A stretch of 55,919 nucleotides of DNA. It comes from a virus. Below, one piece after another: positions 6,205 to 45,246 of the stretch; positions within the stretch are counted from its first letter, which is position 1, and the number at the start of each line of letters is the position of its first letter. The translations under genes were made by a program, and so were the position numbers. The stretch is from positions 1 to 55,919 of IMG/VR virus record IMGVR_UViG_3300032285_001768; one strand, given 5' to 3'. The notes under the pieces are model-generated. The model did not search any database, was not told the origin of the DNA, and saw nothing but the letters and a program-made list of their open reading frames with translations.

Positions 6205-7656
6205 ATGACCGATTTTTTGACGACCTATCCCTACCGTAACAAGCCCTTTCTGCATCAACAGGCGTACCTTCAGAAATTCTGGGAACGCTCTGTCTGCGCC
6301 CTTTTCGCCGACATGGGAACTGGCAAAAGTTACATGTTAATCAACAACTTCGCCATGCTCTACGACAAGGGTAAGGTGAACGCGGTCCTGATCGTGGCAC
6401 CCAAGGGCGTATACCGAAATTGGTATAACTCCGAGATCCCCAAACACGTACCCGAACACACTCAATACCGCATGGCGCTGTGGTCCCCCTCGCCACGCAA
6501 GGCCGAAAAAGAGGCCCTGGACAAACTCTTCGAGGTCACGGAGGACCTCAAGATTCTGGTCATGAACATCGAGGCGTTTTCCACCGACAAAGGCACGAAG
6601 TTTGCCAGCCGATTCGTCACGTACCACGATACTATGATGATCATCGACGAGAGCACCACGATCAAAACTCACAACTCAGCGCGAAGTAAGAACACTGAGA
6701 AAGTTGGGCGTACTGCCCGGTATAAACGAATAGCGACAGGCTCTCCGGTGACCAAGAGCCCAATGGATCTGTACTCACAGTGCTTGTTCTTAAGCCCAGA
6801 TTGCCTGGACGCTTCAAGCTACTACACGTTTCAGGCGCGGTACGCGGTCCTTGTTGACAGGGCAGTTGGAGCCCACAGCTTCAAGCAGATCGTTGGCTAT
6901 CGCAAGCTTGATGAGCTTAAGGAAAAGCTCGACAGGTTCAGTTTCCGGGTGACCAAAGATGAGTGTTTAGATCTTCCAGCCAAACTATACGTCCGTCGAG
7001 AGGTAGAACTCACGAAAGAGCAAGAAAAGGCCTACACGGAAATGAAGCTTATGGCCATGGCAGAGTTTGACCGCGGACTAATGACCACGGTCAACGCGCT
7101 CACCCAGTTAATGCGGATGCATCAAATTGTGTGCGGCCATATCAAACTTGACACGGGCGAAACGCTTGATCTGCCCAACAAACGGTTGGATGAGCTGATG
7201 CAAGTTGTGTCGGAATGCGACGGCAAGATGATTATTTGGGCCAACTATCGTCACGACATTTTCGCTATCAAAAATGCTCTGCAGGCTGAGTATGGGATGA
7301 ACACCGTGGCGGCTTACTTTGGCGACACAGATAGCGACGAAAGACAACAGATTGTCAGCCGGTTCCAAGATCTTAACGACACCTTACGCTTTTTTGTCGG
7401 AAACCCGAAGACGGGTGGCTACGGCTTGACTCTTACGGCAGCCAACGTAATGGTGTATTACAGCAACTCGTTTGACCTGGAGGTCAGGCTGCAGTCAGAA
7501 GATCGGGCGCACCGAATTGGGCAGACCAAGAATGTGACCTACATCGACCTGATCGCGCCAGGAACCGTTGACGAAAAAATCGTCAAGGCCCTGCGCGACA
7601 AGATCAATATCTCTACCCAGGTCTTGGGCGAAGATATTAAGCAGTGGTTGATCTAA
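6205..7656 (+). CDS. SNF2-family DNA helicase/translocase
   Basis: A 483-residue SF2 helicase of the SNF2 group, the only confident plus-strand gene here. Walker A DMGTGKS is at residues 36-42 and a DEST Walker B (MMIIDESTTIK) at about 144-154. The C-terminal helicase half carries the classic QSEDRAHRIGQTK at about 431-443 and ends with IDLIAPGTVDEKI. The frame extends upstream to 6079, but ATG 6205 follows AGAAAGG and begins MTDFLTTYPYRNKPFLHQQ, the usual N terminus for phage SNF2 proteins. It is divergent from the replication operon and its stop overlaps that of the converging late gene by a few bases, with no terminator visible between them. It probably remodels or translocates on DNA during replication or transcription. 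Confidence 0.93.
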   Translation: MTDFLTTYPYRNKPFLHQQAYLQKFWERSVCALFADMGTGKSYMLINNFAMLYDKGKVNAVLIVAPKGVYRNWYNSEIPKHVPEHTQYRMALWSPSPRKAEKEALDKLFEVTEDLKILVMNIEAFSTDKGTKFASRFVTYHDTMMIIDESTTIKTHNSARSKNTEKVGRTARYKRIATGSPVTKSPMDLYSQCLFLSPDCLDASSYYTFQARYAVLVDRAVGAHSFKQIVGYRKLDELKEKLDRFSFRVTKDECLDLPAKLYVRREVELTKEQEKAYTEMKLMAMAEFDRGLMTTVNALTQLMRMHQIVCGHIKLDTGETLDLPNKRLDELMQVVSECDGKMIIWANYRHDIFAIKNALQAEYGMNTVAAYFGDTDSDERQQIVSRFQDLNDTLRFFVGNPKTGGYGLTLTAANVMVYYSNSFDLEVRLQSEDRAHRIGQTKNVTYIDLIAPGTVDEKIVKALRDKINISTQVLGEDIKQWLI

Positions 7657-10600
7657 CCCGGTTGCGGCTGCTGTTGGCGGGCAGCCAACATCGGGCTGAT
7701 TGAGTCAAACGGGAAGAGCGACTGGAACTCTGACCGACTTTGCGGCGCAGGAGTTCCTCCCGGCTTGGGAGCCGGAGGAGTGCTCGGACCAGGGGGCTTG
7801 CCAAATAGATTGGGCAGACCCGTAGTCGGCGGGGCAGGAGGCAAGGCACGGAGCATCTGACCTGCACCTGGGCCCGTGGGCCGTGGTTCCTGGGGCTCTT
7901 TTTCGTCAAAAGTTGCGAAGTTCAAACCGGCAGCGGCAAGGTACGAATGCAAGCTGCGAGCCATGCGGAACCGTTCGACTTGGGTCTTAGGCTGCGTGAG
8001 CAATCGAGCCATCAGCTCGGGGTCCTGAGAAGCTTCTTGAATGATCTGCTTAATAAAGACCTTGGGCATTTTCTGCACCATGTCTCGCAAGTACTTTGAA
8101 CCCGCAGACGCAGCAACCATAGATGCGCCGCCCCCGCCACCAGGAGTCATTTGCTGGATGCCTCGGCCTATGCCAGAACCCATGATTCGCAGCCCAAGCG
8201 TCACAGCCATGTCTTGCAGGTTCTCTGCGTCATCCGAAAGCATTTGCTTGCTCATCATCGACTTCTCGATGCGCTGCATAGGGTAGATTAAACGCTTAAA
8301 GTTATTGCCTTCTTGCGCGGTCATCAACCCTTGCGTGCGCATGATGTTGACTAGAGAAGGGCCATTAGGCGTAATCTCGTCAAACATGATGTTATAGAAC
8401 TTGGTTGGGCTGAAGTTATCCACGCCTCCCGCTTTTTCAAAAGCGTAATCGTACATCGTCGATTTAAGGCCCTTTACCGCTTCTGGTCCACCTTGCATTG
8501 CAAGTTTGGCCATGTTTTGCACGCCCTTAATTGGCGTTTTGCTGGCAAGGACATCCGCCAGAGCACGAGCAGGGTTGCCTTCGTACTTCAGCACTTGCGC
8601 CCACGCCGCTTGAGAAGCGGCTTCTTGCATCAGCTTACTGTTTTCATTTGTTACCGCACGAAATAGGTTTTCAGAAATAACTGCATTGTTCAAATCAGGC
8701 GTTATATTAAACTTGTCCAAAATGGGTTTATTGGCCAATACAAATTTGTTGAGCTTTTCGACGTTCAAACGGCCAGTCGTCTGGTCAATAGAATCTGCGG
8801 CGGCCAGTCGCATGACGCGCGTCAAAGCATCCGTAATGCCGCCAGGACGGTCTTTATTAGACTTATAAAACGGCTCTAACTGTTTGGCTTGTGGGCTATC
8901 CCGACCAAATCGATTAACGACATCATCGTATGTCGTTTTGATCAGCTTAGAAGCATCCATCAGCTCTTCCATTCGAAGAGCCGTGACGTCCGAATTTGAC
9001 CCAAATGCACGAGTAACTAAAAGTTCCGGCGGCAGCTTTTCTGCGCCTGTTTTGGTCACTGCTCCGGGAGCAGTTTTTGTTGCCTGACCAGCAAAAGTGC
9101 GTGTAAAAACGTCGTTTAATGAGCGTGAGAACTGTCGCGCTGCATTAAAAGCGTCTACTGCTTCTGGATTAGCTGCTTTTTGTCCCGCACCAGCAATGTC
9201 ATCTAGCAAAGATTCAGCCAGTTCCCCGTAAATACGGGCGTTATTTACTTCGCCTTTGCCACCATATTCTCTTGCTATTCGCAGCATGTTGCTGCGCATG
9301 TCAATTAGGTCATAAACAGGAATTGGATCAGCATCAAACCCTTTTCCAGGGCCTGGAACCCCTGATTCCATTCTTCCCGTCCGCTTGTAGTTCTTATAAA
9401 TACTGGTCGTGGCGTCGTTGGCCCCAAGCCTGGTCATTAACTTTTGAATACTAGTCGGTACAAGATCGTTTAATAGCTCAGGCGTAGTTGTAGATACTAA
9501 GTCAAGATATGTATTAAGCGTCTGGTTAGGCCGAATCTTAGGAACTCCCGCCATATAGGCTTCGCCCATTTCCTCAAGAGTGGTTTTTCTTCTAAAGGGG
9601 CTCATTCCAAGAACCATTTTCCCAGTTCTTGGGTCCTTAACTTTTTCAAACCAATTTTCAAACATGACTACTGGTTGTTCAGGCACCCCTATGTTTGGAT
9701 TGCCCGGAATTCTTGCAGTCTTGTGCTCGTAATAAACTTTACCGTCAGATCGTGTTCTTTTAACAAACTCTGATTTTAAAAACTGAAGGTTTTTAGCGGC
9801 TTCTGTTTCGCCACCCATTGCCAGCCTTTTAACGGCATCTTCCCAAAGCAGCTTTTCATAGTCCCGCGAATCGCGCAATGCGCCTTCGGTGTTGTCCTTG
9901 ACAATCTGGCCAATTGCCTGACGCGCTGCTGGTGTATCTTTGCTAATGTTCTTGATCCGTGCAGCAGAGGCCGCGTCCGCTGCCGCAAGACGCCCGTCCA
10001 ACAATGCCTCAAAGCCCTGCTTTTCTAAGGCCGCGGCAGTTTGCAATGCCTCTGGCGTACCAATGTTTTTCATGTTCCGCACCAGGAGGCTGTATGCCTC
10101 CAATGCCTGGCGACCTTGTTCAAGGTTTTCGCCGGCATACTCAGGCATCTTTTTAGCTAACATGCGCTCAAGCATGGTCAACGGCAAGCTGCCTGTTTTT
10201 TGAGCAGCAGTTGGCGTAATTGGCTTGCCCTTGGCATCAACAATGTTCGCTCGAAGACGAGCAACTAGTTTCGGAATGTCTTCGCCACCCTCTTCCAAGA
10301 TACGCTGCAAATACTCCGCGGCCCGTGTTTCACGTGCTCCTTGGCTGTACGTGCTTCGCATCGTGCGCAAGGCATCAATTGCGCTAACCGTTCCATTGGT
10401 CAACCAACGACTGGGCGAAAGAACTCCACCCGCGACTTCGCCCACGAATGCCGGACCCGCTTCTCCGGGGTACATCGATTCCGCGGTCATTGCACCCATG
10501 CCGGCCCCAAGACCGCCATGCAATTCACCAAGCAAGAAGGTTTTTGGGTACTTACGAGCAGCTTCTCCAATACCAGAAATGAACCGTGAAACACGGTTCG

Positions 10601-11084
10601 CGGTCATTACAGGCAACATAAATGCGCCGGGGGCCATGGCAATCGCACCGCCAAACGCCTCTCCGCCACGCCTATAAATCGACGCATCTTCCTTGTTGGT
10701 CATAGGAAATGCTTGGTTGTACAGGTCTTCCAGCGACTTCCCAGTGTACGCGCCTAATCCCGCTCCAATGACTGCGCCAGCGGGGGGCATAAACGGTGCT
10801 GCCGGACCTGTAAATGGCGCGACCATAGAGCCAAGTCGTCCACCAGTAACTGCACCCGCAAGCATAGGAGCAGCGGCAACAAATCCTTGACCCGTGCCTT
10901 TCAGAAACTCTGAGCCGGATTCTTCGAGGGTCGTATCTCTGGCCCCAGGACTTTCGTCGTTGTATACGGGAGTTCCAGGAATATAACCTTCCCCCGTTCC
11001 ACGACCGCGCGAAGGCTCCTCCTGATAAGGAGACGACATCTCATCAAGCTGACGAAGCTGTTCCGCTGCGCTGGGTGGAGGCAT
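7653..11084 (-). CDS. large internal virion protein candidate
   Basis: A 1143-residue protein, last in the late transcript. Around residues 65-125 lies a Gly/Ala-rich hydrophobic stretch (AAAPMLAGAVTGG, PPAGAVIGAGLGAYTG) that could insert into a membrane. The middle is long, charged and helical. The C-terminal 100 residues are Pro/Gly-rich (PPAPPTTGLPNLFGKPPGP). No lytic transglycosylase motif was seen. Size, place at the end of the structural genes and the membrane-active stretch fit an ejection protein comparable in role to the large internal core proteins of podoviruses, but this is inference. ATG 11084 follows AGGAG and shares one base with the upstream stop (TAATG). Confidence 0.65.
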   Translation of the reverse strand: MPPPSAAEQLRQLDEMSSPYQEEPSRGRGTGEGYIPGTPVYNDESPGARDTTLEESGSEFLKGTGQGFVAAAPMLAGAVTGGRLGSMVAPFTGPAAPFMPPAGAVIGAGLGAYTGKSLEDLYNQAFPMTNKEDASIYRRGGEAFGGAIAMAPGAFMLPVMTANRVSRFISGIGEAARKYPKTFLLGELHGGLGAGMGAMTAESMYPGEAGPAFVGEVAGGVLSPSRWLTNGTVSAIDALRTMRSTYSQGARETRAAEYLQRILEEGGEDIPKLVARLRANIVDAKGKPITPTAAQKTGSLPLTMLERMLAKKMPEYAGENLEQGRQALEAYSLLVRNMKNIGTPEALQTAAALEKQGFEALLDGRLAAADAASAARIKNISKDTPAARQAIGQIVKDNTEGALRDSRDYEKLLWEDAVKRLAMGGETEAAKNLQFLKSEFVKRTRSDGKVYYEHKTARIPGNPNIGVPEQPVVMFENWFEKVKDPRTGKMVLGMSPFRRKTTLEEMGEAYMAGVPKIRPNQTLNTYLDLVSTTTPELLNDLVPTSIQKLMTRLGANDATTSIYKNYKRTGRMESGVPGPGKGFDADPIPVYDLIDMRSNMLRIAREYGGKGEVNNARIYGELAESLLDDIAGAGQKAANPEAVDAFNAARQFSRSLNDVFTRTFAGQATKTAPGAVTKTGAEKLPPELLVTRAFGSNSDVTALRMEELMDASKLIKTTYDDVVNRFGRDSPQAKQLEPFYKSNKDRPGGITDALTRVMRLAAADSIDQTTGRLNVEKLNKFVLANKPILDKFNITPDLNNAVISENLFRAVTNENSKLMQEAASQAAWAQVLKYEGNPARALADVLASKTPIKGVQNMAKLAMQGGPEAVKGLKSTMYDYAFEKAGGVDNFSPTKFYNIMFDEITPNGPSLVNIMRTQGLMTAQEGNNFKRLIYPMQRIEKSMMSKQMLSDDAENLQDMAVTLGLRIMGSGIGRGIQQMTPGGGGGASMVAASAGSKYLRDMVQKMPKVFIKQIIQEASQDPELMARLLTQPKTQVERFRMARSLHSYLAAAGLNFATFDEKEPQEPRPTGPGAGQMLRALPPAPPTTGLPNLFGKPPGPSTPPAPKPGGTPAPQSRSEFQSLFPFDSISPMLAARQQQPQPG

Positions 11085-15085: not shown

Positions 15086-17152
15086 TTAGTTGCTCCCAAG
15101 AGGGCCGTTTTCTAACGACTTCATTAGCTTGTACATCTTGGCAGCACCCTTGCGACGACTGCCACCACCTGCATTACGAACCGCTTTAGCCGTAAATACA
15201 AACTCCCCGTCCGACAACATGGCCGGAATTGAATCGGACGTCTCGGTTCCAGGACCGTCAATCTGTCCAATTTTGCGAGGGAAATGGTTTACATCTCCAC
15301 CTGTTGCATAAGGGCGATTATACGGCTGCGGCACTCCGCCAGGCATATTAGTTAATGGCCCAGGGGAATACGTTGGCAACATCGGAGCATTTACTTGGGG
15401 CATCGGAATGCCCATTTGAAAGTTGTTTGTTGGGACGGCAATTGGTTGCGTATTTGAAAACTGGCCTGATCTCAGATTGCCACTAAACAATTGCGGGTTA
15501 TCTTTTATGTAATTTGACCCAGTGTATTGGGAATTAAAAGCAGGGTTTTTTTCTGAGGGTTTAGATTTAAACCCACCTGCCAGTGCCGTTGCACCCAATA
15601 CAGCCGCCGCACCAGGACCATATTTTCCAAGCATCGTTGTGGCATTTGGATCGGTGAAGATCTTGCCAAAACTGTCAAACGAAGGCTTGTTATAGAAGTC
15701 CTGGGCCCGGCTAATTAACGAGCTTTCGGTAGATCCTGCTTTTGCTCCAGCGGTTGCTGGGTTTAACCCCTCGTTGTCCCCCATGGTAAATCCGCCCACG
15801 GTCCCGCTACCTGCAGGCGGAAGATTGGTAGTGTATGGGGACGGTGAAACAGAGGTTGTTTGAGCAGGAGCATTTGGCAGGCCTTCTCCTTGAGGAGCAG
15901 GCACATTTTGAACAGCCTCGTAAGATTTAACAACGGAAGGGTGTAAGCCAAAGTCCTTTCCAAGTTGCTCAGCATTTACTTTGGTGTCTAAACTTTGCCC
16001 AAGCTGTTCAGCCGACGGAATTCCCCCAATGCCACTAGTGCCAGAGATTGGAGACAGCTCGCCGTTGATATATTGAGGAGCGTTATTTCCGCCGGTATCG
16101 GGTGTAGTAAATGTCTGATACTGAGAAGGCGAAGCGTTTGGATTAGGGGCCGAAAGCCCCATTCCTTGCAACCCAGCGGTCGTTACCCCAGCCATAGCAC
16201 CAGACTTCAAGGCTTCACCAAGGCTTTGCCCACGCAAAAGCCCGACGCCCATGCCCAACGTGCCAGACGCCAACCCGCTATTGAGCAATGAACCAGCGGT
16301 CCCTGGCATAAACTTGGCAATTTCTCCAAGCGGGCTTACGCCCATGACCGTGCCGCCGCTACCCAAATAGCCCATAGCACCGGAGATCAGCACGTCTTTC
16401 AAGTTTCCACCTGAATACGCGGTCAATCCGGCACTGGCCAGCCAAGGCGGAACACCAATCATGGTGAGACCAATTGTGGCGACTAACCTACCGATAGGGC
16501 TTGCAACTACTTTATGCAGACCATCGTCAACTTTGGCAAGCGCATTTGAAACGCTACTGACCGCGTTTCGGATTTCTTTTAACGGATTAAAAAACTCATG
16601 CAATCCTGTGTCCGGATTGATTGAGCCCGAACCGCCAAAAGCCTTCAAAAGCTGCGCTTCTTCTGGCGTGATATGCGCCAGCATTGTGTCGCCATTGCGA
16701 CCTTGCGATTGCAAATACCGAGTGACATCTGCTAGGCCTCCTTGGGCCATGGGCATGCCTTCCATTGGCATTGACCGCTCTGCAGTATCCTTCTTTAGCT
16801 CATGTAGGGCCGCGAGCCGTGTGCCAATGTACGTCTGGTCAAACTGGTCCGGAAGCATGGACGGAGGAACAATTCCATTTTGTACCAACGTAGACACGAT
16901 TTGCTCGTACTCGTCTTTGTGATCGATTAGGTACTCAAACATCGCAATCAAGATGTCAACCATTTGCGGCGAAATCTCGACATCCGACATTGCCGTGCGC
17001 ATGGCACCGCGATACTCGTTCACGGCTTCAGGGGCCATCTGCCCCACTGCTTCTAGCGTTGCGTCATATAATTCCCCGCTGGGAATACGAGGCAATTTGG
17101 CTGGGGCCTTGGGCAGGGAACCAATCCCTTGAGCTTCGAGTTCAGGATTCAT
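15086..17152 (-). CDS. structural protein with MAQGGL and GGDVNHF motifs and SDGEFV C-terminal motif
   Basis: A 688-residue protein. The N-terminal 140 residues are helical, then AQGGLADVTRYLQSQGR leads to HITPEEAQLLKAFGGSGS. The middle has Gly/Ala-rich hydrophobic stretches (about 225-330). Near the C terminus are YATGGDVNHFPRKIGQ and then ETSDSIPAMLSDGEFVFTA, a motif widely seen at the C-terminal end of phage tail and internal structural proteins. The end is basic (SRRKGAAKMYKLMKSL). The frame also has GTG 17164 and ATG 17158; I use ATG 17152 because TGATG overlaps the stop of the DUF6321-like gene with GGTGG upstream. Probably an internal or tail-associated virion protein. Confidence 0.66.
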   Translation of the reverse strand: MNPELEAQGIGSLPKAPAKLPRIPSGELYDATLEAVGQMAPEAVNEYRGAMRTAMSDVEISPQMVDILIAMFEYLIDHKDEYEQIVSTLVQNGIVPPSMLPDQFDQTYIGTRLAALHELKKDTAERSMPMEGMPMAQGGLADVTRYLQSQGRNGDTMLAHITPEEAQLLKAFGGSGSINPDTGLHEFFNPLKEIRNAVSSVSNALAKVDDGLHKVVASPIGRLVATIGLTMIGVPPWLASAGLTAYSGGNLKDVLISGAMGYLGSGGTVMGVSPLGEIAKFMPGTAGSLLNSGLASGTLGMGVGLLRGQSLGEALKSGAMAGVTTAGLQGMGLSAPNPNASPSQYQTFTTPDTGGNNAPQYINGELSPISGTSGIGGIPSAEQLGQSLDTKVNAEQLGKDFGLHPSVVKSYEAVQNVPAPQGEGLPNAPAQTTSVSPSPYTTNLPPAGSGTVGGFTMGDNEGLNPATAGAKAGSTESSLISRAQDFYNKPSFDSFGKIFTDPNATTMLGKYGPGAAAVLGATALAGGFKSKPSEKNPAFNSQYTGSNYIKDNPQLFSGNLRSGQFSNTQPIAVPTNNFQMGIPMPQVNAPMLPTYSPGPLTNMPGGVPQPYNRPYATGGDVNHFPRKIGQIDGPGTETSDSIPAMLSDGEFVFTAKAVRNAGGGSRRKGAAKMYKLMKSLENGPLGSN

Positions 17153-17409
17153 CAGCATTTCCACCGTTTTAATGACGCTTTGGCGCGTTCAGCATCGCCC
17201 TTCGCGTGTTTAACTACGCCCTCCATGCGGGCGCAAAAGCTTGCTTTCCGGCCTTTGTCCGCTGCAGTCTTAGGACTAGGGGCAGGAGCTTTTAAGTGGC
17301 TGCCTGTAGCGGCATTGTACTTCGCTCTGCCTTTTGCTGTAAGCCCCGCCCCCTCTTTTACCGAGAGTTTTTCTCCACGGCCCACGGACAAAGAGACGAT
17401 CTTCTTCAT
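17152..17409 (-). CDS. DUF6321-like small basic phage protein
   Basis: An 85-residue, strongly basic protein with the features of the DUF6321 family: GRGEKLSVKEGAGLTAKGRAKYN, then NAATGSHLKAP, PKTAADKGRKASFCARMEGV and the end AERAKASLKRWKC. It has no known enzymatic function; basic charge and position among virion genes suggest DNA contact or a minor virion component. ATG 17409 overlaps the stop of the preceding 49-residue gene in ATGA style, and its stop overlaps the next start in TGATG style, so the three are translated together. Confidence 0.82.
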   Translation of the reverse strand: MKKIVSLSVGRGEKLSVKEGAGLTAKGRAKYNAATGSHLKAPAPSPKTAADKGRKASFCARMEGVVKHAKGDAERAKASLKRWKC

Positions 17410-32393: not shown

Positions 32394-33299
32394 TTAGGCT
32401 CCAGGGCAGCCGTAAATACCACGCCAATCGCTGAACCCGAAGCTGTAACGCTCACGAGCCTTGTAGCGCACGTTACCAGTATCGAAGTCGCCTTCGAAAC
32501 CAGTGCGGATTGCAACACGCTCGAACATCTTCATGCCGTTAGGAGCGTCGGTCTTGATAAACCAGCCGTTCGTATCGGTCAAGAAGTGGTTAACGGTGTA
32601 ACCCTGGGGGATCATGCCCATGTTCTTGATCGCGTTGATGTCGTTATCTGCAGTTCCGACACGAAGCGTAGACTTCAGGATCCGGTCAGCAGTAAACATC
32701 AGCTCTTTCGGGATGATCAACTTCAGACCCTGCATGGCGATCTTCAGGCCACGTTCGTCGGTGAACGCAGCGATGTCGATCAGAGCCTGCTCAAGCGAAG
32801 TCTCGCTCAAGTCGGCATCCACAGCCAAACGGTTGGAACCGTTAGGGCCGCCCAGCGTTGGGTGAGCAGTCGAGCACAAAGGCTGGCCATCGCCACCAAT
32901 CGAGGTCGTAAATGCACCGTTCAGAACAGCAGCACCTTTAATCTGCTTGGTCTGAGCCATGGAACGAGCCAGGGCCTTGGTGTAACGAGCCGATAGACGA
33001 TCATACAGGTTGTCTTCCACTGCCTCTTCAGTCAGAGAAAACGCCAGCGCAATCGTTTCGTGGGTGTAGCGAGCCGTAAAGACTTCCTGCGCCTGATCGT
33101 AGAACACGCCAGAGCCTTCAGTCTTAACCGGAGCGGTTGAGAACCCAGACAGCATCACTTCTTCTTCGAAAGCACGGTCCGAAGACTCGACTTCGTAGAT
33201 TTCAAGATGCTCGTTCTCGTAGTTTTTGTACTCAAGGCCGAAGAGGGCATTTAGACCCGGCTCAAGCTCTTTCGTAAGTTGGGCACGTGAAATTGCCAT
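32394..33299 (-). CDS. major capsid protein
   Basis: A 301-residue head shell protein. It opens AQLTKELEPGLNALFGLEYK and continues with HLEIYEVESSDRAFEEEVML, ARYTHETIALAFSLTEEAVE, LCSTAHPTLGG and NDINAIKNMGMIPQGYTVNH, ending YKARERYSFGFSDWRGIYG. I recognise this as the major capsid protein type of environmental podoviruses, related to Mu gpT-like and HK97-fold capsids. It is preceded by scaffold and decoration genes and followed by a terminator, which fits a highly expressed gene. Confidence 0.9.
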   Translation of the reverse strand: MAISRAQLTKELEPGLNALFGLEYKNYENEHLEIYEVESSDRAFEEEVMLSGFSTAPVKTEGSGVFYDQAQEVFTARYTHETIALAFSLTEEAVEDNLYDRLSARYTKALARSMAQTKQIKGAAVLNGAFTTSIGGDGQPLCSTAHPTLGGPNGSNRLAVDADLSETSLEQALIDIAAFTDERGLKIAMQGLKLIIPKELMFTADRILKSTLRVGTADNDINAIKNMGMIPQGYTVNHFLTDTNGWFIKTDAPNGMKMFERVAIRTGFEGDFDTGNVRYKARERYSFGFSDWRGIYGCPGA

Positions 33300-35979: not shown

Positions 35980-36246
35980 TCAGTATATACCAACAGGATC
36001 ATTGCCGTCACGTTTGCGAATGACTTTTGCAGGCCCGTTTTTGCCTTTTTTAAGCTCTTTTTTAGGTGCATTACTTGGATTATTCTGTCCAGCCTTGCTG
36101 TAAGCAATTGCCGCAGCCTGTTTTACAGCCGCTGCGGTGCTTTTTGGCTTGCTTGTACCAATCTTCCCCTTCTCTTTAAAGGAATGCACCATCTCCCCAA
36201 TGTTTGAGCTAATGGTTTTTTGACTTTTACCAGATTTAAGAGGCAT
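35980..36246 (-). CDS. small basic head-module protein (DUF6496-like)
   Basis: An 88-residue Lys-rich protein: MPLKSGKSQKTISSNIGEMV, then TSKPKSTAAAVKQAAAIAYS, KAGQNNPSNAPKK and VIRKRDGNDPVGIY at the end. The KSQKTISSNI...QAxAIAxSKA pattern recalls DUF6496-type small virion proteins. The open frame extends much further upstream (36492) inside the portal gene, but the ATG at 36246 overlaps the portal stop by 11 bases and is followed by natural-looking sequence. Function unknown. Confidence 0.75.
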   Translation of the reverse strand: MPLKSGKSQKTISSNIGEMVHSFKEKGKIGTSKPKSTAAAVKQAAAIAYSKAGQNNPSNAPKKELKKGKNGPAKVIRKRDGNDPVGIY

Positions 36247-38605
36247 TTTGGTTCCTTGTAGGCTGGTTTGTAGTGATGTGCGTGCGCTCCCTGGCAATAC
36301 CGCCCCTGAACTGGGCAATATTCTCTTGTGAACGCATTCTTTCTTGCGCAACTTGTGCATTTTGCTGCAACTTCTGCTGATCCAATTGCAACGACTGCGC
36401 TTCCAACGCCAATTTCTGTTGGTCGTTCTGCGCACGCTGCGCCAACTCCTGCTTCTTAAGCTCAACAATCGGATCAGGCTGCTCGTTACCACCGTTAAGT
36501 TGATCCTGCAGATCTCTCATGTCCTTTATGTACTGCGCAATCTTTAGCGCAATCATGCTTTCCTTCTGAATAGCTGAAACCATTCGGTCAGGATCGCTTC
36601 CATATGACTGGAACAGCTCCGCTTCCACGGTTTCCTCCGCTTTTAAGCGAACATGCTCCATGATGTGTTGCTGGAACGCAACGGCGACGCCAACATTTGA
36701 CTGAACCGTAGGCGACATGCCAAACATCAAGTGAGCAGCAATGTGCGCATCATGCTGTTGCCCCGCAAACGCTTTAACCTTCATGGTATCCATGATGTGC
36801 GCGTTTTCTGTCGCCGGATCTTTCGGGAACTGAGCATTTTGAGGCTTCAACAACCCCGAAATATCCCGAACATTCAACGCCGCATACACCCGATAGTACG
36901 CTTCGTACATGTCGTGCATCTGCGGAGCACTCTGCGCTAACTGCAGTTGCGTTTGCGCCAGAGTGATTCTTTGCGTGGTCGAAAAAATGTTGGGGTCAGA
37001 TACCGGAAGGACCGCAACCAAGCTGTTAAAGTCCTTGCGCTTGATCGACCGACTGGCTCCAGGGACGTCATACGGATAGTTTTCCGGTAAATAGTCAGCA
37101 AAACCTTCCGCCAGGAGCTCAAACTCCATCGCCTGCGCATAATGCAGCCGCTTATGGATCGCGCTCATCACCATGGAGCCACGCTCAAGCAGCGCCATCG
37201 TTGTTCCTACCTGCGCATTCTGGTTACCATCCCCAACCATCATGTCCGCAGTACTGGCCAACCGCTTTCCAGCGTCAACCAAGAACCCAAGCAGCTGAAA
37301 CAACGTCTGACTCGGCTCTTTGTACGGCAAAGGCAACAAAGATGCCGACAATTCCGCACCACCCGCGTCAATATCGCGCCATTCACCCGGCTGAATCGGA
37401 TTATCACTGTCCGCGATCCGCGCACCCTTCGCCTTGAAGCCCGCCGGCAGGTTTGACAACGTCCCCGCATCCAACAGCTGGCGCAAAGCCGACGTCGCAC
37501 CCTTCGACAAACTGCCAATCAGGTGAACAAACCCCAAGCCATACGCACCAAGGCCCTCGACAAGCACGTAATGGACAAAATAATTGCGCCGACGCTTTAA
37601 TTTGTCGCTTTCTTTCCAATTCCGACGCACGCCAACCACTTGCAACGAGTCTTCCGAGAACGTCACAACATACGGAAGCTTGATTTTTGTCGGCTCGCCG
37701 TCCTCATCCTTGTCCTCAAACCCCGGAATCTCCAAATCGACCTGCATTTCCAGCAAAAAGATTTCTTCCGCTTGGTCCGTTGGCCGAACTCCAACAATTT
37801 TGTCCGTTGCTTTTGCAATTTGAGTTGAATCAGTGGGCTGTTGCTCGGCTTCCAAGTCCACATCCAAGTACTCACCGGCCACTACGCGCTTGCGAAACTC
37901 ATTCGCATCCATCGCAATCCGGTGCGTGACCCGCGGACACTGAGCAATCACGCTCGATCCGTTGTATGGAATATACAAATCATTAGCCAAAACCAGCTTA
38001 CTGACCATCCGCCCCAACTGAGCGTCGTAATAAACCTTTTTGAACGTCGAACCACCGTAGCCGGTATAGAACAACAACTGATCAAACTCGGGCGTGTACT
38101 CACGCATCACGTGAGTAATCTGATAATTCATGAAATCCTGGACGCGACCGGCCTGCTGGACCTTGTCCGCAGTCTCTTTGCCCATAATCTCCGTGCGCAC
38201 AGGCCCGCCCGCAGGCATCAATTCCTTAAACGCTTGCGCCTGGAACTGAACAATCGCCTCTGTCAGCAACGGATGCGCCGCATTTGACGCGCCACGGAAT
38301 GGCTTGGTCTTCTCTTCAAGCTTCAAGCCCAACAGATCAAGGCCCTTGGCGTACATCTGCTCCCAATCCGAGCGCGAGGACTTGTCTGCTTCATACATCT
38401 GAAGCAACTCCATCGCGATCTTTCCAAGGTCCTGCTCGTCAATGACCTCCGCCAGGTTGGCGTAAAAATCTACTTCGTCCTCTTCCCCTATTTCAACGGT
38501 CGCCCCACCGTCATCCTCCAGGACAACTTCAATGTCCGGGGCCTGCTCATCAAGGACCGCGATGCCCGTACTCGGAGCTTCTGAGAAGGATTTTTCAATT
38601 GACAT
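36236..38605 (-). CDS. portal protein (P22 type)
   Basis: A 789-residue protein that forms the dodecameric entry ring for DNA. After an acidic N terminus it has EADKSSRSDWEQMYAKGLDL, then KTKPFRGASNAAHPLLTEAI and FKELMPAGGPVRTEIMGKET, DFMNYQITHVMREYTPEFDQ and LFYTGYGGSTFKKVYYDAQL, all hallmarks of the P22-like portal family. The C terminus is a Gln-rich coiled coil (QNDQQKLALEAQSLQLDQQK), comparable to the barrel domain of long portals. Portal length fits the family (about 700-800). Confidence 0.92.
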   Translation of the reverse strand: MSIEKSFSEAPSTGIAVLDEQAPDIEVVLEDDGGATVEIGEEDEVDFYANLAEVIDEQDLGKIAMELLQMYEADKSSRSDWEQMYAKGLDLLGLKLEEKTKPFRGASNAAHPLLTEAIVQFQAQAFKELMPAGGPVRTEIMGKETADKVQQAGRVQDFMNYQITHVMREYTPEFDQLLFYTGYGGSTFKKVYYDAQLGRMVSKLVLANDLYIPYNGSSVIAQCPRVTHRIAMDANEFRKRVVAGEYLDVDLEAEQQPTDSTQIAKATDKIVGVRPTDQAEEIFLLEMQVDLEIPGFEDKDEDGEPTKIKLPYVVTFSEDSLQVVGVRRNWKESDKLKRRRNYFVHYVLVEGLGAYGLGFVHLIGSLSKGATSALRQLLDAGTLSNLPAGFKAKGARIADSDNPIQPGEWRDIDAGGAELSASLLPLPYKEPSQTLFQLLGFLVDAGKRLASTADMMVGDGNQNAQVGTTMALLERGSMVMSAIHKRLHYAQAMEFELLAEGFADYLPENYPYDVPGASRSIKRKDFNSLVAVLPVSDPNIFSTTQRITLAQTQLQLAQSAPQMHDMYEAYYRVYAALNVRDISGLLKPQNAQFPKDPATENAHIMDTMKVKAFAGQQHDAHIAAHLMFGMSPTVQSNVGVAVAFQQHIMEHVRLKAEETVEAELFQSYGSDPDRMVSAIQKESMIALKIAQYIKDMRDLQDQLNGGNEQPDPIVELKKQELAQRAQNDQQKLALEAQSLQLDQQKLQQNAQVAQERMRSQENIAQFRGGIARERTHITTNQPTRNQNAS

Positions 38606-38617
38606 GTTTTAGTCCGG

Positions 38618-41600
38618 TTATTCTTCACGAGGCCCTGGAAGACCTAGTCTTGCACGAATTGCTTGTGCTCTGGCTCGCAATCGTTCGCGAGCATTGGGAG
38701 GAGCAGGAGCATCAGCAGGAGGAGGAATCCCCTGACCACCTTCTCTCGCTTGTCGACGTGCAATTATACGTTCAAGGGCCTGCAGTGCATTCTCGCCTGG
38801 ACGAAGAAATAAATTGGGATGGGCTTCAATTGCAGCCATCATAAGCTCTTGACCCGGAGGAACTCCTTCAAGAAGGTTTACGTTTCTAGGTAAAGGAGTT
38901 TGGGTCACAGCCCGCGGACCACGGTTAGGACGAGCTTCTAGGTAAGCGTTTTTCCACGAGAATCCTTCCCCACCACCGTAATGGCTTGGAATAGAGTTTA
39001 CATCTAGATTAGGAATGCTGTCTAAAAATTTAAAAATTGCTTCTTTATTGTCAAGTGGATTGCTGTTAGTGGGGCCTTGAATTTGATTAATTTTTACTAA
39101 GCCATTTGGAGAATCCGCAAGATCTATTGTGACTTCAGGCTTGTCCATTTTTGGACGGAAACTATAAACGCGGGTAGTGCCTGCCTCAAAAGCAGGTCTA
39201 CCACCCAGGTTATAATCTTCTTTTGTTGAATACCCGCCAACAGAATGCCTCATTTGGGCACCTTCAACCTCAACTGCCTTTTTTGTTCCAACTTGATACC
39301 AGCCAGGAACGTCTTCTACAGGTTTAAGGCCCTCTCTTAATATGTCATTGACGGCCTTTTTGGGGTAGGATTGACCATTTCGAATTGCAAGTATAAGTTG
39401 TGGAAATTCCCTGCTTTTTTGCCATTGCGGGTATGCGGAAATAAGTGCTTCATCAGCATTCATTTTTGACAATTTGTCAGCTGGAATAGATGCTAACAAG
39501 GAAGCCGCTTCAGAGCCACTCATGCCTGGCAAAGGCAATTGAGCCATGTCATATACTGGCTCATTTCTTTGGATTGCGTCAATAATCCATTGATAATTAG
39601 GGTCTCCGGCCCTAACTGCTTCAACTAGTTTTTGAGCGGGAACTTCTTTGTTATCAAATATTTGTTTTGCATAATTTTCCAGCGATAACGCATCATAGGT
39701 TGGTGGAAGTGTTTGATATTCGTCTGGAACCCCTGCCTCGGTCAACTGCTTGGCTATTAAATCCCTTGTTCGTTCTGCCGCCTTATTTTGATTGTTGTAG
39801 CCCACCATCCAATCATTAGTTGGATTTGGAAGATCCATGATTGTGGTTGGCCTAACCGTAGAAGCGCGGTCATAAAAAGTATGGAAATCTTCTAGGGCCT
39901 GTTCTTTTTCGGCAAAAGACTTCTTTTGGGTATTTGAATAAGGCAGTGTTTTTTGAAGTTCTTTTAGTTCAGTTTTAATTTTTGCAGCTTCGTCTTTAAG
40001 GCCCTGTTCCTGCGCAGCTTGCGCGGCCTGCTTTAGCTCATTAATTCTTGGTTGGGCGGCGGCAACTTTGTTTTGAAGTTCCAAGCCTTCTTTGGCCGCA
40101 TCAATCATGTACGGACGGAACGCATCGCTTTGTGGTGCCGGAGTACTAGCAGACCCTTCCACCCGTCTATTAAGCAACGCCATTCGAAGGGGGTCTTCAT
40201 GCGTTCCCAGTGATTTTTTAATAAATGGGGCAAGTTTGTCCGCAAGAAAAGTTATAACGTCTGCCCGGCCACTGGGTACGGCTTGCATTGCGTCTTTAAT
40301 AAACGATTCCAGCCCAGTAAGATTTGATTTAACGGGACCTTCCGGCGTATCAACAGTGACTGAACGCTTCCACTGCCCGCCAGGGATTTTGACAGCCATG
40401 CCCAGCGAACCAGCCGGGGCTTTGCCCGTTGCCAGGCTTGCAAGCGACGTATTTATCGCCGCCTCTGGCACCTTCTCCTCGTCAAACCGACCAGTTGTTA
40501 ACGCCTGACTGGACAGGTTGTACGGCAACAAGAGATCTTTCACGATGTTTGGCGCAATAAACTCGGTCTTGCCATTTCGCTTGATTGGCATTGGCAAGAA
40601 CGTGCCCCGCTTCTCGTTCACCGAAGGGTCAAAGCCCATGGTGCGCTGGATAAACTCGTCCGTCGTCTCGCCACCCGCCTCGTCCAGGGCCGGGGTCCGC
40701 GCAACTTTCTCTCGCGCCGCCGCTACTCGCGAGCGTTCCGCTATCTCAGCACGTTGCCTGGCCTGATTGGCCGCCTGTCTGCCAAAAGGATTTGGTGGTG
40801 CGACATACCCCTCGCCCTCTTCCGGGCTGCCATCGGCACGTTTAGGCAAGTTCACCAGCACGTCCCGTCCCTGACCAGGAGGCATCTTCCGACCCGCATA
40901 CTCGCGCAACCGTCCATACGGACCTTCCGTCACCACAGATGGGACAGCATCCAAAGCTTCTGACCCAACCCGCGGATTAAAGTCGTACTTGTCCTTGATG
41001 ACAAAGTTCCCTTCCGGCCCAAGACCATACTTAAACTGCCCAAGCGACGTGGCCAACGACTCCGTAGGGGTCTTTCCACCAGACAAGCTGCGACTTTCCT
41101 GGACCACGCCCTTTGGATAGTCAGAGTACTTCACTTCCGGCAAAATCTTCCCAAGCTTGGCAAGATCTCCTGCCGCACCAGACATTACCAACCCACGGCG
41201 ACGAGCATTAGAAGGCTCTTCGCCTTCCGCCAAAGCCATCAAACCAGGCGTAAACTGCCCCGCCTGAAACTTCTTGATCATGTCCAAGTCAGATTGGTAT
41301 TGCGACTTCTCTTCTTTAGACAACTTTCCCTTTAAAGCCGCTTCCAAATGCTGACCATACTTGGTCAAAGGCTCTTCCAAACCCTTATACCGACCACGAA
41401 CCATCTCATCCATCTGCGCTAACTCAGCTGGATTGAAATTCTTCTCGGTGATCTGACTCCGATCCCCGCCCCGAACACTCTCTAAAAAGATTCTCTTGTT
41501 CGAGGGCAGTGATCCTTGGTCCATGATCCTTGAATACAGATCCAAGGCCGGCTCAACAAGGTACTTGTCGCCAAACGTCAGCTTTTCGTCCGGGGCACCC

Positions 41601-43747
41601 GCTTTAGCAGATGCCCCGCCCGTAAAATTTGAGGCCTCTCCCCCCTCCGCAAATCTTCGCTTAGATAGATTCTGTCGCATTAGGTTCGACAACATGGCCT
41701 TTGCAGTCGCCATCTGCTCCGGAGTGGCCTGGCTTGGTCCTTGGGCCGTGGACATTGAACTATAGTTCATGGCCATCCCAGCAGGACGACCCTGCCTATC
41801 CACAATCTGACTGGCCTGCTGCGTGCGCACCGCCTGACGATTCGGGGAACTCACAACCTGCGTCTTTCGCGGACCCGTCAACTGCTCATACCCCTTGAGC
41901 ATCTGCTTCGCCCCAGACGCTTCGTTATCATCGTCCTCCTCAACAAGCCCACCTTCCGCTTTTGTAACAGGCTGCTGAATAAACGACTGAAACGTCAACG
42001 GATTAATTGTCGGAATAGCAATTAAATTGCCCATCCGATCATACGTCTGCTTGTATTGCCCTAAACTAGTCGGAGTTAAATTAGGACTAGCCGCTATTTT
42101 AGTTTGCGCTGGAGACGTTGAAAAATACTTACTTGGGTCAAAACTAAACCCGGACGGCAAATAGCCAATCAAAGAATTTAAATTTTGATTGTTATTGTAT
42201 GCCGTATTGAACTTACTTAAATCAACCTGGGCCGGAGTAAACGAACCCTGAGCAACTCCATAAGAAATGGGTGCTGTTACATTTGGGGTTCCACCAGCCG
42301 TCGGAACTACAGTTGGAGACGATAACGGCACATACGGAATGTTCGTATTGCCCAAGGTTCCCGTATCAAGGCCCGTTATGGGCTGATACGGAATGTTTGT
42401 ACCCGTTTGGGTCGGAACATTTGTCGCCGTATTAACATTTGTCTGCGTGACAATCTGTTTTGGGAGTGTTGTGGTCGTTACGTTAGTGCCGCCAGTACCT
42501 CCAGTACCGCCCGTTCCACCCGTTCCGCCTGTTCCACCCGTTCCGCCTGTTCCACCCGTCTGCACTTGACCAGCAGATGGAATAACAAAATAACTCTCGC
42601 TAGGCGTCATCGCCTTAAGCGCCGCGGCCTCCTGTGCAGTAGTCATGGCCCGCGGGTCCATGCCCGCGCGATTCAAAGCGTTTTCCGCTATCGCCTCACC
42701 AATAACATTCACTCCAGGATGCGCATGCGCATACGCAAGCGCCGCCGCATCATTAAACGTCGGATTAGCTGGAGGCAACACCATTACCTGGTCGCCACTT
42801 AACCTACTAACCTCGGCGGCCAACTGATCCGAACTCATGCCGGACGTATTAACCCCCTGCCCATTCAAAAACGATTGCGCCACGTCCATTCCAATCGTAT
42901 TGACCGCAGGTCCGCCACCAGCAAAATGCTGCACTGCACCACCCTTGGCATACGCGCGATTAACCGCATTAGGGTCATACTGGAACGGCAAAAAATTCCT
43001 ATTGTTCTTCGGATCGTACATAATCGGATCCGTATACCGCCCTAACGCCGGCAAGTTCTTATTGGACCGCGCTATAAAATCAGCGGTGGTCGGAGTCTGC
43101 GGCTTAACAGGTGCTTTATAAGGAATCTTGTTCAACGCAGCACTATAGTCATCCCACATCCGCTTGGAAGAAATCGCCGGATCTTCCATCTGCGGTGCCG
43201 GAGGCCCCATCTGCCCAGGCGCAAGTTCGGGAATATAAGAACGAAAATACGACCGAACATCCTTTGGGGCCCCAGTCGCCGGGTCAATCGGCAAAGTCGG
43301 CACACCCGCCTGATAATTCTGATACCCGCTACTCGCATACGGGTTATTGTTTAGCCTAGAACCACTACCTCTATTAAAATAGTTGTTAAGCTCGACCATC
43401 CGCGACGATTCCTGCCCAACATACTGGTCCGGATCAACCGTAGTACCCGGCGGCGCAAAATATGTTGTTCCCACCGTACCGCCAGTGACAGGAGGACCCG
43501 ACGTGGTTGAAGGACCACTTGTAGCCGGGGGCGCAGATCCACCGCCGCCCGCGGCAGTGTCAGGAACCCAAACCTGATAAACACTCCCACCACTCTGCGA
43601 GTTGTCTACCGTCTCGTAATGGCCACCACTTCCGCCGCCACTACTTACATCTCCACCCTGCAAAAAGTGCTGAACAGGCATCCCCTGCTCCTCGTCATCC
43701 ACCGACGGATCATAAGGACGAGAAAGCGCGTTGATGTCCATTTCCAT
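38618..43747 (-). CDS. giant late protein with GGxVQHF motifs, Gly-Gly-Thr repeat and PcfJ-like C-terminal region
   Basis: A 1709-residue protein between terminase and portal. Residues 23-32 (MPVQHFLQGG) and about 264-278 (AKGGAVQHFAGGG) carry the motif shared with other large late proteins. Residues 398-421 are eight Gly-Gly-Thr units. The first 700 residues are Pro/Gly/Gln/Thr-rich. Residues about 1200-1350 are helical with a coiled coil. From about 1496 the text MRHSVGGY, then GTTRVYSFRPKMDKPEVTID and INQIQGPTNSNP matches the order of a PcfJ-like domain (MxHCVxxY, hYSLR, TIE, QIKGxxN), with Ser where Cys is usual. The end is Pro/Arg-rich. It could be a virion protein injected with DNA; the place in the transcript supports a structural role. 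Confidence 0.62.
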   Translation of the reverse strand: MEMDINALSRPYDPSVDDEEQGMPVQHFLQGGDVSSGGGSGGHYETVDNSQSGGSVYQVWVPDTAAGGGGSAPPATSGPSTTSGPPVTGGTVGTTYFAPPGTTVDPDQYVGQESSRMVELNNYFNRGSGSRLNNNPYASSGYQNYQAGVPTLPIDPATGAPKDVRSYFRSYIPELAPGQMGPPAPQMEDPAISSKRMWDDYSAALNKIPYKAPVKPQTPTTADFIARSNKNLPALGRYTDPIMYDPKNNRNFLPFQYDPNAVNRAYAKGGAVQHFAGGGPAVNTIGMDVAQSFLNGQGVNTSGMSSDQLAAEVSRLSGDQVMVLPPANPTFNDAAALAYAHAHPGVNVIGEAIAENALNRAGMDPRAMTTAQEAAALKAMTPSESYFVIPSAGQVQTGGTGGTGGTGGTGGTGGTGGTGGTNVTTTTLPKQIVTQTNVNTATNVPTQTGTNIPYQPITGLDTGTLGNTNIPYVPLSSPTVVPTAGGTPNVTAPISYGVAQGSFTPAQVDLSKFNTAYNNNQNLNSLIGYLPSGFSFDPSKYFSTSPAQTKIAASPNLTPTSLGQYKQTYDRMGNLIAIPTINPLTFQSFIQQPVTKAEGGLVEEDDDNEASGAKQMLKGYEQLTGPRKTQVVSSPNRQAVRTQQASQIVDRQGRPAGMAMNYSSMSTAQGPSQATPEQMATAKAMLSNLMRQNLSKRRFAEGGEASNFTGGASAKAGAPDEKLTFGDKYLVEPALDLYSRIMDQGSLPSNKRIFLESVRGGDRSQITEKNFNPAELAQMDEMVRGRYKGLEEPLTKYGQHLEAALKGKLSKEEKSQYQSDLDMIKKFQAGQFTPGLMALAEGEEPSNARRRGLVMSGAAGDLAKLGKILPEVKYSDYPKGVVQESRSLSGGKTPTESLATSLGQFKYGLGPEGNFVIKDKYDFNPRVGSEALDAVPSVVTEGPYGRLREYAGRKMPPGQGRDVLVNLPKRADGSPEEGEGYVAPPNPFGRQAANQARQRAEIAERSRVAAAREKVARTPALDEAGGETTDEFIQRTMGFDPSVNEKRGTFLPMPIKRNGKTEFIAPNIVKDLLLPYNLSSQALTTGRFDEEKVPEAAINTSLASLATGKAPAGSLGMAVKIPGGQWKRSVTVDTPEGPVKSNLTGLESFIKDAMQAVPSGRADVITFLADKLAPFIKKSLGTHEDPLRMALLNRRVEGSASTPAPQSDAFRPYMIDAAKEGLELQNKVAAAQPRINELKQAAQAAQEQGLKDEAAKIKTELKELQKTLPYSNTQKKSFAEKEQALEDFHTFYDRASTVRPTTIMDLPNPTNDWMVGYNNQNKAAERTRDLIAKQLTEAGVPDEYQTLPPTYDALSLENYAKQIFDNKEVPAQKLVEAVRAGDPNYQWIIDAIQRNEPVYDMAQLPLPGMSGSEAASLLASIPADKLSKMNADEALISAYPQWQKSREFPQLILAIRNGQSYPKKAVNDILREGLKPVEDVPGWYQVGTKKAVEVEGAQMRHSVGGYSTKEDYNLGGRPAFEAGTTRVYSFRPKMDKPEVTIDLADSPNGLVKINQIQGPTNSNPLDNKEAIFKFLDSIPNLDVNSIPSHYGGGEGFSWKNAYLEARPNRGPRAVTQTPLPRNVNLLEGVPPGQELMMAAIEAHPNLFLRPGENALQALERIIARRQAREGGQGIPPPADAPAPPNARERLRARAQAIRARLGLPGPREE
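42485..42556 (-). repeat. 9-bp tandem repeat coding for eight Gly-Gly-Thr units
   Basis: Eight consecutive 9-base units of the form GGN GGN ACN (minus strand) encode (Gly-Gly-Thr)x8 in the giant protein. Third positions differ between units, so the peptide rather than the DNA seems to be preserved, although some adjacent units alternate GGTGGAACA and GGCGGAACG. Slippage could change its length. Confidence 0.85.
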
Positions 43748-43788: not shown

Positions 43789-45246
43789 CTAATAGTACTC
43801 CGTCACAAGCTCCTGCGATCCCGGCTCATCCGCTTCATCCGTCTCCAACGCAATAAAGTTACCCGCACGAAACCTCATCAAAGCCTGCGTCGTGCTGTCC
43901 ACCATGTCATCATTGTCCCCATTCGGAAATGCCGCGCACTCCTCAACAAGAGCCTCCGCCCAATCCGTGTCCGGTGCCCACACCATCCCCGCCTCCAACA
44001 TCGGCGCAACAGAATTGGCCCTCGAAATCTTGTCCGTACCCGCCCGCCGTCCTCCCGGAGAGTACATCGTCACAGGTATCCCCACCCGCCGCAACTCCTG
44101 CTGCAACGTCACACCCGTCGCCTTCGCCTCAATCAAAACATTATCCGGCTTCCAATAATCATACTGCGCCTTCGCCACACGCTTTAACTCCGGGAAATCC
44201 CACCTCCCCTTCTTCACATCCATCAAAACAATATTAGGACCCGAGTCCTGATCAGGATGAAACACGCCCCACGTCGTAATCACACTATAGTCAGCCGTTT
44301 CCTTCTTTGAATACGCCGTGTCATACGACTGAATAATGTAATCCACAGCAGGCGGATTCTCCGAAGGCCAAACCTTCCACCACTCCCTCTTCAAAATCGC
44401 ACCCTCATCATTCGTAGGCTGCTGCTGCCACTGCGCCTGCCACTTCTGCACGGACAACGCTGCACGCACACTCTGCAACTCCGACAACTGCCAAAACTGC
44501 GGCCACAACGGATTGCCAGACGGCAAAATCGCCGGAAACTCAATCACCTCCCAACTGTCAGCCTTGTGCGACGTCTGCTGCTTCACCAACCTGGCAGTCA
44601 AATCCTTCGTCCCCCAGCGCGTCATCACCACAACAATCGCACCACCAGGCTGCAACCGCTGCCGCGGACCCGATGTGTACCACTCCCACGCATTGTCCAA
44701 CGCCATCTCACTCAACGCATCCTGCTCCGAATGCGGATCATCAATCACCAAAAGATCCGCACCCCGCCCAGTCATCGCACCACCCACACCAACAGCAAAG
44801 TACTCCCCGCCCTTGTCCGTCTCCCACCGGCCCGCCGCCTTGCTATCAGCCTGCAACGTCACCTTCGGAAACACCTCCTTGTACTCCGTCGAATCCATCA
44901 AGTTCCGCACCTTCCGGCCAAACCGCACAGCTAACTCACCCGTGTGCGTCGCCTGAATGATCTTGGTCCGCGGACGATGGCCCATGACATACGCCGGCAG
45001 CAAATAGGACGCGAACTCAGACTTTGTATGCCGCGGCGGCATATTAATAATTAGCCTTTTTAAAGAGCCGTCAACAACTCTATTAAAGGCATTGGCCATC
45101 TTTTCATGGTGCGAGCCAATGATTGCCTCGGGCCAAACATAACGGACAAAGGAAAGAAAGTCTCCTTGTGCCTTGTCTAATACCTCAAGCTTCGCGAGCC
45201 GGTATTCAAGTCTTAGTCGTTGGGCTTCTGCTTCTTCAGGGGTCAT
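43789..45246 (-). CDS. terminase large subunit
   Basis: A 485-residue DNA-packaging motor. Walker A-like MPPRHTKSE is at about residues 69-77 and Walker B LLVIDDPHSEQD at about 165-176, followed by the coupling motif VVMTRWGTKDL. The C-terminal nuclease has IIQSYDTAYS, VLIEAKATGV and DDMVDSTTQAL with the expected acidic residues. This is the P22/Sf6-like large terminase group. ATG 45246 has no clear ribosome binding site, only AAAGCAATTGGCC. Unusually, the small subunit is not adjacent but about 5.3 kb away. Confidence 0.94.
   Translation of the reverse strand: MTPEEAEAQRLRLEYRLAKLEVLDKAQGDFLSFVRYVWPEAIIGSHHEKMANAFNRVVDGSLKRLIINMPPRHTKSEFASYLLPAYVMGHRPRTKIIQATHTGELAVRFGRKVRNLMDSTEYKEVFPKVTLQADSKAAGRWETDKGGEYFAVGVGGAMTGRGADLLVIDDPHSEQDALSEMALDNAWEWYTSGPRQRLQPGGAIVVVMTRWGTKDLTARLVKQQTSHKADSWEVIEFPAILPSGNPLWPQFWQLSELQSVRAALSVQKWQAQWQQQPTNDEGAILKREWWKVWPSENPPAVDYIIQSYDTAYSKKETADYSVITTWGVFHPDQDSGPNIVLMDVKKGRWDFPELKRVAKAQYDYWKPDNVLIEAKATGVTLQQELRRVGIPVTMYSPGGRRAGTDKISRANSVAPMLEAGMVWAPDTDWAEALVEECAAFPNGDNDDMVDSTTQALMRFRAGNFIALETDEADEPGSQELVTEYY

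Follow-up and report, generated by a model that had tools for sequence, protein, structure and literature searches.

PcfJ proteins (PF14284) occur widely, on conjugative plasmids and in hundreds of phage records; neither an account of PcfJ function nor an earlier report of its fold was found in open-licence papers. The canonical proteins (Enterococcus plasmid pCF10, Listeria B054 gp62, and Streptococcus SM1 gp23) are about 450 aa long and have a C-terminal core that runs E..(M/L)xH(C/S)VxxY, then a strand (YSLR/VFxR), T(I/L)E, and QxxGxxN; in the phage genes we looked at, PcfJ lies in the early or replication region beside an AcrIIA9/PcfK-type gene. The polyvalent proteins, which are large multidomain phage proteins encoded near portal and terminase, have been described as entering the virion and being injected; most belong to portal-terminase phages, and one of their GNAT families usually adjoins the ART domain in the same polypeptide (Iyer 2017, PMC5512222). 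The first-pass annotation of the locus described here had taken PcfJ to be an established polyvalent domain, a premise we do not share: PcfJ is absent from the main text of that paper (PMC5512222), and because canonical PcfJ genes are early or replication-region genes, the presence of the domain is in itself no sign of delivery.

The sequence analysed (the window), 55,919 bases long and recorded as a virus in IMG/VR, carries a PcfJ-like sequence in quite another setting, at the C-terminal end of a very long protein encoded between the terminase large subunit and portal genes, a place that we call the slot:

43789-45246, minus strand: terminase large subunit gene (terL), the upstream neighbour (phrog_38, E 1.1e-113)
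38618-43747, minus strand: slot gene, an open reading frame for a 1709-aa protein with a PcfJ-like C-terminal end, lying between terL and portal in a position shared with relatives
36236-38605, minus strand: portal protein gene, the downstream neighbour (phrog_1216, E 7.7e-32; annotated as portal in DSL-LC04)
32394-33299, minus strand: major capsid protein gene, further downstream in the late module (phrog_371)

Only 41 nt separate terL from the slot gene and 12 nt the slot gene from portal, and the slot gene lies on the same strand as the terL, portal, major capsid, and tail genes. The same terL-portal slot is occupied in phage DSL-LC04, whose portal and terL are 72% and 76% related to those of the window, by a protein annotated as PcfJ-like (WJZ48068.1) which differs from the window protein in being 825 aa long, in keeping HCVGGY, and in having a long insertion in the domain. 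The N-terminal half of the window protein is long and of low complexity, and includes GGT tripeptide repeats (GGTGGTGGT...) at residues 398-421 (nt ~42485-42556). Scanned in full against Pfam and PHROG, the 1709 residues returned nothing useful, and a whole-protein tblastn search against annotated phages gave no match. Besides a C-terminal module of about 320 aa that is common to most PcfJ-type slot proteins, the window's included, conserved blocks lie at residues ~480-760 and ~900-1140, neither with a family name. The features of the C-terminal module are:

38951-39994, minus strand: stretch modelled by AlphaFold2 (residues 1252-1599), containing the ~320-aa conserved C-terminal module
39002-39313 (approximate), minus strand: PcfJ-like domain (residues ~1479-1582), placed by the trimmed PF14284 match, the profile-profile comparison, and the high-confidence part of the model
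39230-39250, minus strand: RHSVGGY motif (residues 1500-1506), the counterpart of HCVxxY
39056-39091, minus strand: INQIQGPTNSNP motif (residues 1553-1564), a strand end and the loop ahead of the last helix

The first-pass annotation had recognized a PcfJ-like region from its motifs, and these are indeed present in the order it gave, within residues 1499-1564: MRHSVGGY (1499-1506), TRVYSFRP (1525-1532), and PEVTIDL (1537-1543) precede the last motif listed above, so that the series EG..H(C)VxxY, FxR/YSLR, TxE, QxxGxxN is present, Ser replacing Cys and Asp replacing Glu. The span it assigned, 38618-39270, clips the start of the domain and adds a tail of about 120 aa.

Taken alone, the window domain is a borderline case. 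PF14284 matches neither the whole 1709-aa protein nor the raw window, and matches the trimmed sequence weakly (E 0.088) over profile positions 75-143, which are the motif half, at 13.1 bits where the curated cut-off is 25; a PcfJ HMM built from 7 sequences gave no significant match to the window, and a scan of viral contigs with the window C-terminus alone found nothing. On these values the PcfJ resemblance could be read as a chance string of motifs; it is the relatives that decide. A portal-anchored scan yielded 80 viral contigs, a scan by domain pattern alone yielded 72 new loci, and iterative HMM searching located the PcfJ-like domain at the same place in more than 40 loci. Specifically, i) 16 of 34 aligned family members match PF14284, with a best E of 1.9e-10, and no other family is common to more than 2; ii) same-slot orthologues pass the 25-bit cut-off, namely those of DSL-LC04 (36.4 bits) and of related locus L019 (34.5 bits); iii) the family profile matches canonical PcfJ in hhalign with a probability of 97.0-97.5 (best run E 4.9e-12, score 79.7), compared with scores of at most 17.1 for 60 column shuffles and 12.1 for the reversed profile; and iv) the predicted topologies agree and a structure search retrieves PcfJ proteins, as described below. 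A chance resemblance is thus very improbable. Scans for further canonical PcfJ types found nothing, and PDB sequence searches with the slot family and with PcfJ gave nothing meaningful. We conclude that the window domain is homologous to PcfJ, and that the protein as a whole is not a PcfJ protein, since it is 1709 aa long and encoded between terL and portal in the packaging module, rather than about 450 aa long and encoded beside a PcfK/AcrIIA9-type gene; upstream of the core, no similarity to PcfJ was detected.

The Ser found in place of the usual Cys had been singled out in the first-pass annotation; the Ser is there, but it is no peculiarity of this protein. Among 91 unique domains, the position of the HCV-motif Cys is occupied by Ser in the window and in 80 of the 91 relatives, and by Cys in 10, so that Ser, judging from the aligned domains, is the norm for this phage branch of the PcfJ family. 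The less usual substitution is TID for TIE, found in 3 of the 91. The conserved positions are E (86 of 91), H (86), V (88), Y (84), R (84), T (90), E (82), Q (85), G (79), and N (79). That these polar residues are retained speaks for a functional site, and we have dropped the idea that Ser signals a loss of activity, the set being kept in about 79-86 of the 91 domains. A clade of four relatives (L007, L008, L009, and L016) has MNNSVGSY where EGxxMxHSVGGY is usual and departs from the polar set; these are possibly inactive copies. Three slot proteins, those of L013 (5276-9982), L017 (607-4986), and L019 (1-2799), contain two PcfJ-like domains per chain, and in L019 one copy reads HCVGGY and the other HSVGGY.

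Residues 1252-1599 were modelled by AlphaFold2 with 60 relatives (mean pLDDT 85, and ~94-98 across most of the PcfJ-like domain), and canonical PcfJ was modelled independently from nine relatives. Compared by the order of their elements, the two models have the same succession of strands and helices: two short strands, two helices, three strands, and a helix. A BFVD search with the window model retrieves PcfJ-like viral proteins with E down to 8e-7, the best match (2e-14) being a protein named DUF6973, and the structure prediction thus bears out the first-pass assignment to PcfJ. Compared with solved structures by VIA-align, the window model finds GNAT acetyltransferases or GNAT-domain proteins in all 50 of the 50 matches listed (best listed Z 6.4, rmsd 3.3 over 99 residues, model residues ~230-348), and the matches listed for canonical PcfJ are nearly all of GNAT fold (best Z 8.1, rmsd 2.9 over 101 residues); the predicted window fold superposes on the first strand to the third helix of GNATs such as RibT, HAT1, RimL, and TacT. 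Foldseek matches to GNATs are weak (E 0.07 for the window model and 0.045 for canonical PcfJ), and profile similarity to GNATs, tried against 20 GNAT-locus sequences of which some are in wrong reading frames, gave hhalign scores of 13.0 and 12.5, within those of shuffles. Nor does the window domain contain the Q/RxxGxG/A string of the acetyl-CoA loop, reading QIQGPT there; the string occurs in 62 of the 91 relatives as a string match only, not placed against GNAT structures, and we do not rely on QxxGxG resemblance as evidence for GNATs. We do not claim membership of the GNAT family, the sequence-level link being no stronger than shuffled controls. Because the Z scores lie in a range that unrelated folds also reach, Foldseek is weak, and a profile signal is absent, the GNAT resemblance of the models is best taken as a consistent structural lead, and not as a demonstrated relationship or activity.

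The place of the slot gene is nearly invariable: portal is the very next gene after 107 of 115 open reading frames with the PcfJ domain, the majority of which belong to loci that the domain pattern by itself had detected. The contents of the slot vary strongly in size and kind. Pfam names ART-PolyVal in 7, DUF7178 in 3, DUF6973 in 3, LPD23 in 1, and SLT in 1 of 35 slot proteins, beside PcfJ, and the slot protein of L100 combines a PcfJ-like domain (1393-1542) with ART-PolyVal (1676-1820) in one chain. In the window protein itself a Pfam search found no second domain, and the PcfJ-like domain is the only one that can be named, a difference from the multidomain polyvalent proteins. The first-pass suggestion that the protein is of polyvalent type and belongs to a late operon is nevertheless well founded, same-slot relatives carrying ART-PolyVal, LPD23, and DUF6973.

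At the DNA level, related locus L001 and the window share 4855 bp with 98.0% identity, in a match that starts 5 bp before the slot stop codon, and the 1148 bp of L001 upstream of it, still within the slot gene, have no DNA similarity to the window; L020 is 90% identical across terL and the initial ~100 bp of the slot gene, then matches only in patches, and is 84% identical from the start of portal. More generally, DNA identity of 84-98% between the window and L001, L002, L005, and L020 stops where the slot gene ends. Among 107 pairs whose portals have 95% identity or more (pairs which are not mutually independent), the C-terminal 300 residues of the slot proteins are less than 35% identical in 55. 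The slot is hypervariable and swaps its contents fast, and judged by these comparisons the slot gene is an apparent hot spot of recombination, with conserved terL and portal on either side. The very close portal relatives L004 (slot ORF 1-2217) and L020 (4744-9210) have other C-termini, both containing HELTH, which follows the HExxH pattern characteristic of zinc metallopeptidases; in the C-terminal part of the L020 slot ORF, Pfam recognizes no named domain.

The near-invariable place between terL and portal and the long low-complexity half would suit a structural or assembly factor, such as an internal core or a portal-proximal scaffold, whose PcfJ-like domain binds portal or DNA and is not injected. 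We think this unlikely in view of the wholesale slot swaps among phages with nearly identical portals, the presence in the slot of enzyme domains such as ART-PolyVal, and the Roseobacter and cyanobacterial relatives in which portal comes shortly after terL and no large gene separates the two. Another reading is that the slot product acts late inside the producing cell, for example against competing phages or late defence, and is not packaged; canonical PcfJ genes do adjoin replication genes. This too we regard as rather improbable, given that the polyvalent repertoire found at the same slot belongs to a class proposed as injected (PMC5512222), and that the gene sits within the head and packaging module.

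Slot proteins with otherwise unrelated modules have in common a short motif, which we searched for as [FY][AKRDSNE]xGGx[VILA] (typically FAEGGEV or YAKGGAV; in short form [FY]AxGGx[VA]) and refer to as FAxGG. The window protein has these copies:

42932-42952, minus strand: YAKGGAV (residues 266-272)
42905-42925, minus strand: FAGGGPA (residues 275-281)
41633-41653, minus strand: FAEGGEA (residues 699-705)

In 97 non-redundant slot ORFs the motif occurs 165 times, compared with 6.7 times in shuffles (maximum 13), and its density is 1.63 per 1000 aa, compared with 0.047 for 814 non-slot ORFs from these loci (about 35-fold); several of the few matches outside the slot are in slot ORFs that the portal criterion had missed. 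The enrichment is descriptive, because the motif was picked after slot sequences had been viewed. Copies sit between modules and, in a further 20 instances, close to the C-terminus (within 60 aa of it), and the motif is perhaps a delivery or processing tag. A tie to the 'L(S/T)xGEF' region of tape-measure proteins was dropped, that string occurring in 1 of 147 slot proteins. GG motifs (YATGGDV, YRRGGEA) are also present in candidate tape-measure or ejection-type proteins of the window (15086-17164 and 7653-11084, minus strand), and in the first of these families in 3 of 3 sequences, the window's included.

The best explanation of the locus is that it is a cargo slot among the packaging and head genes of DSL-LC04 and HTVC023P relatives, a group of phages abundant in water. 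We favour, with a probability of roughly 0.55, the reading that the window's slot gene encodes a cargo protein of the polyvalent type, which is delivered with the DNA and bears a PcfJ-like module that may have the GNAT fold, because the gene keeps its place ahead of portal, slot contents are swapped, slot relatives carry a polyvalent repertoire, and the motif is enriched. Such a protein, built from a low-complexity N-terminal half with FAxGG motifs, exchangeable modules, and the ~320-aa C-terminal module, would be made late; would be built into the head near the portal; would enter the next host with the DNA; and would there act, through a transferase or binding activity of its PcfJ-like domain, on a host or DNA-entry target. 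Its site of action would be built from the conserved residues E, H, S/C, R, E, Q, and N, and the scaffold that bears them is predicted to be similar to the N-terminal portion of a GNAT fold. The proposal in the first-pass annotation that a late PcfJ-like protein is co-injected and acts at the start of infection is partly supported, packaging and co-injection being what we infer from the analysis. A more specific version, which makes the terL-portal slot an exchangeable gene dedicated to cargo in a phage group that ranks with the most abundant in water, FAxGG a delivery or processing tag of its products regardless of the effector modules in them, and the PcfJ-like module a GNAT-fold effector, is speculative, and we would not bet on it.

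We wish to stress what this locus may offer for a family as widespread as PcfJ. The presence of PcfJ as an exchangeable cargo module of a head operon, alongside ADP-ribosyltransferases, points to a role in cell entry; the predicted GNAT-like fold makes such a role testable; and the short FAxGG motif provides a handle for finding cargo of this kind. If true, the GNAT-fold effector reading would be the first mechanistic lead for plasmid PcfJ.
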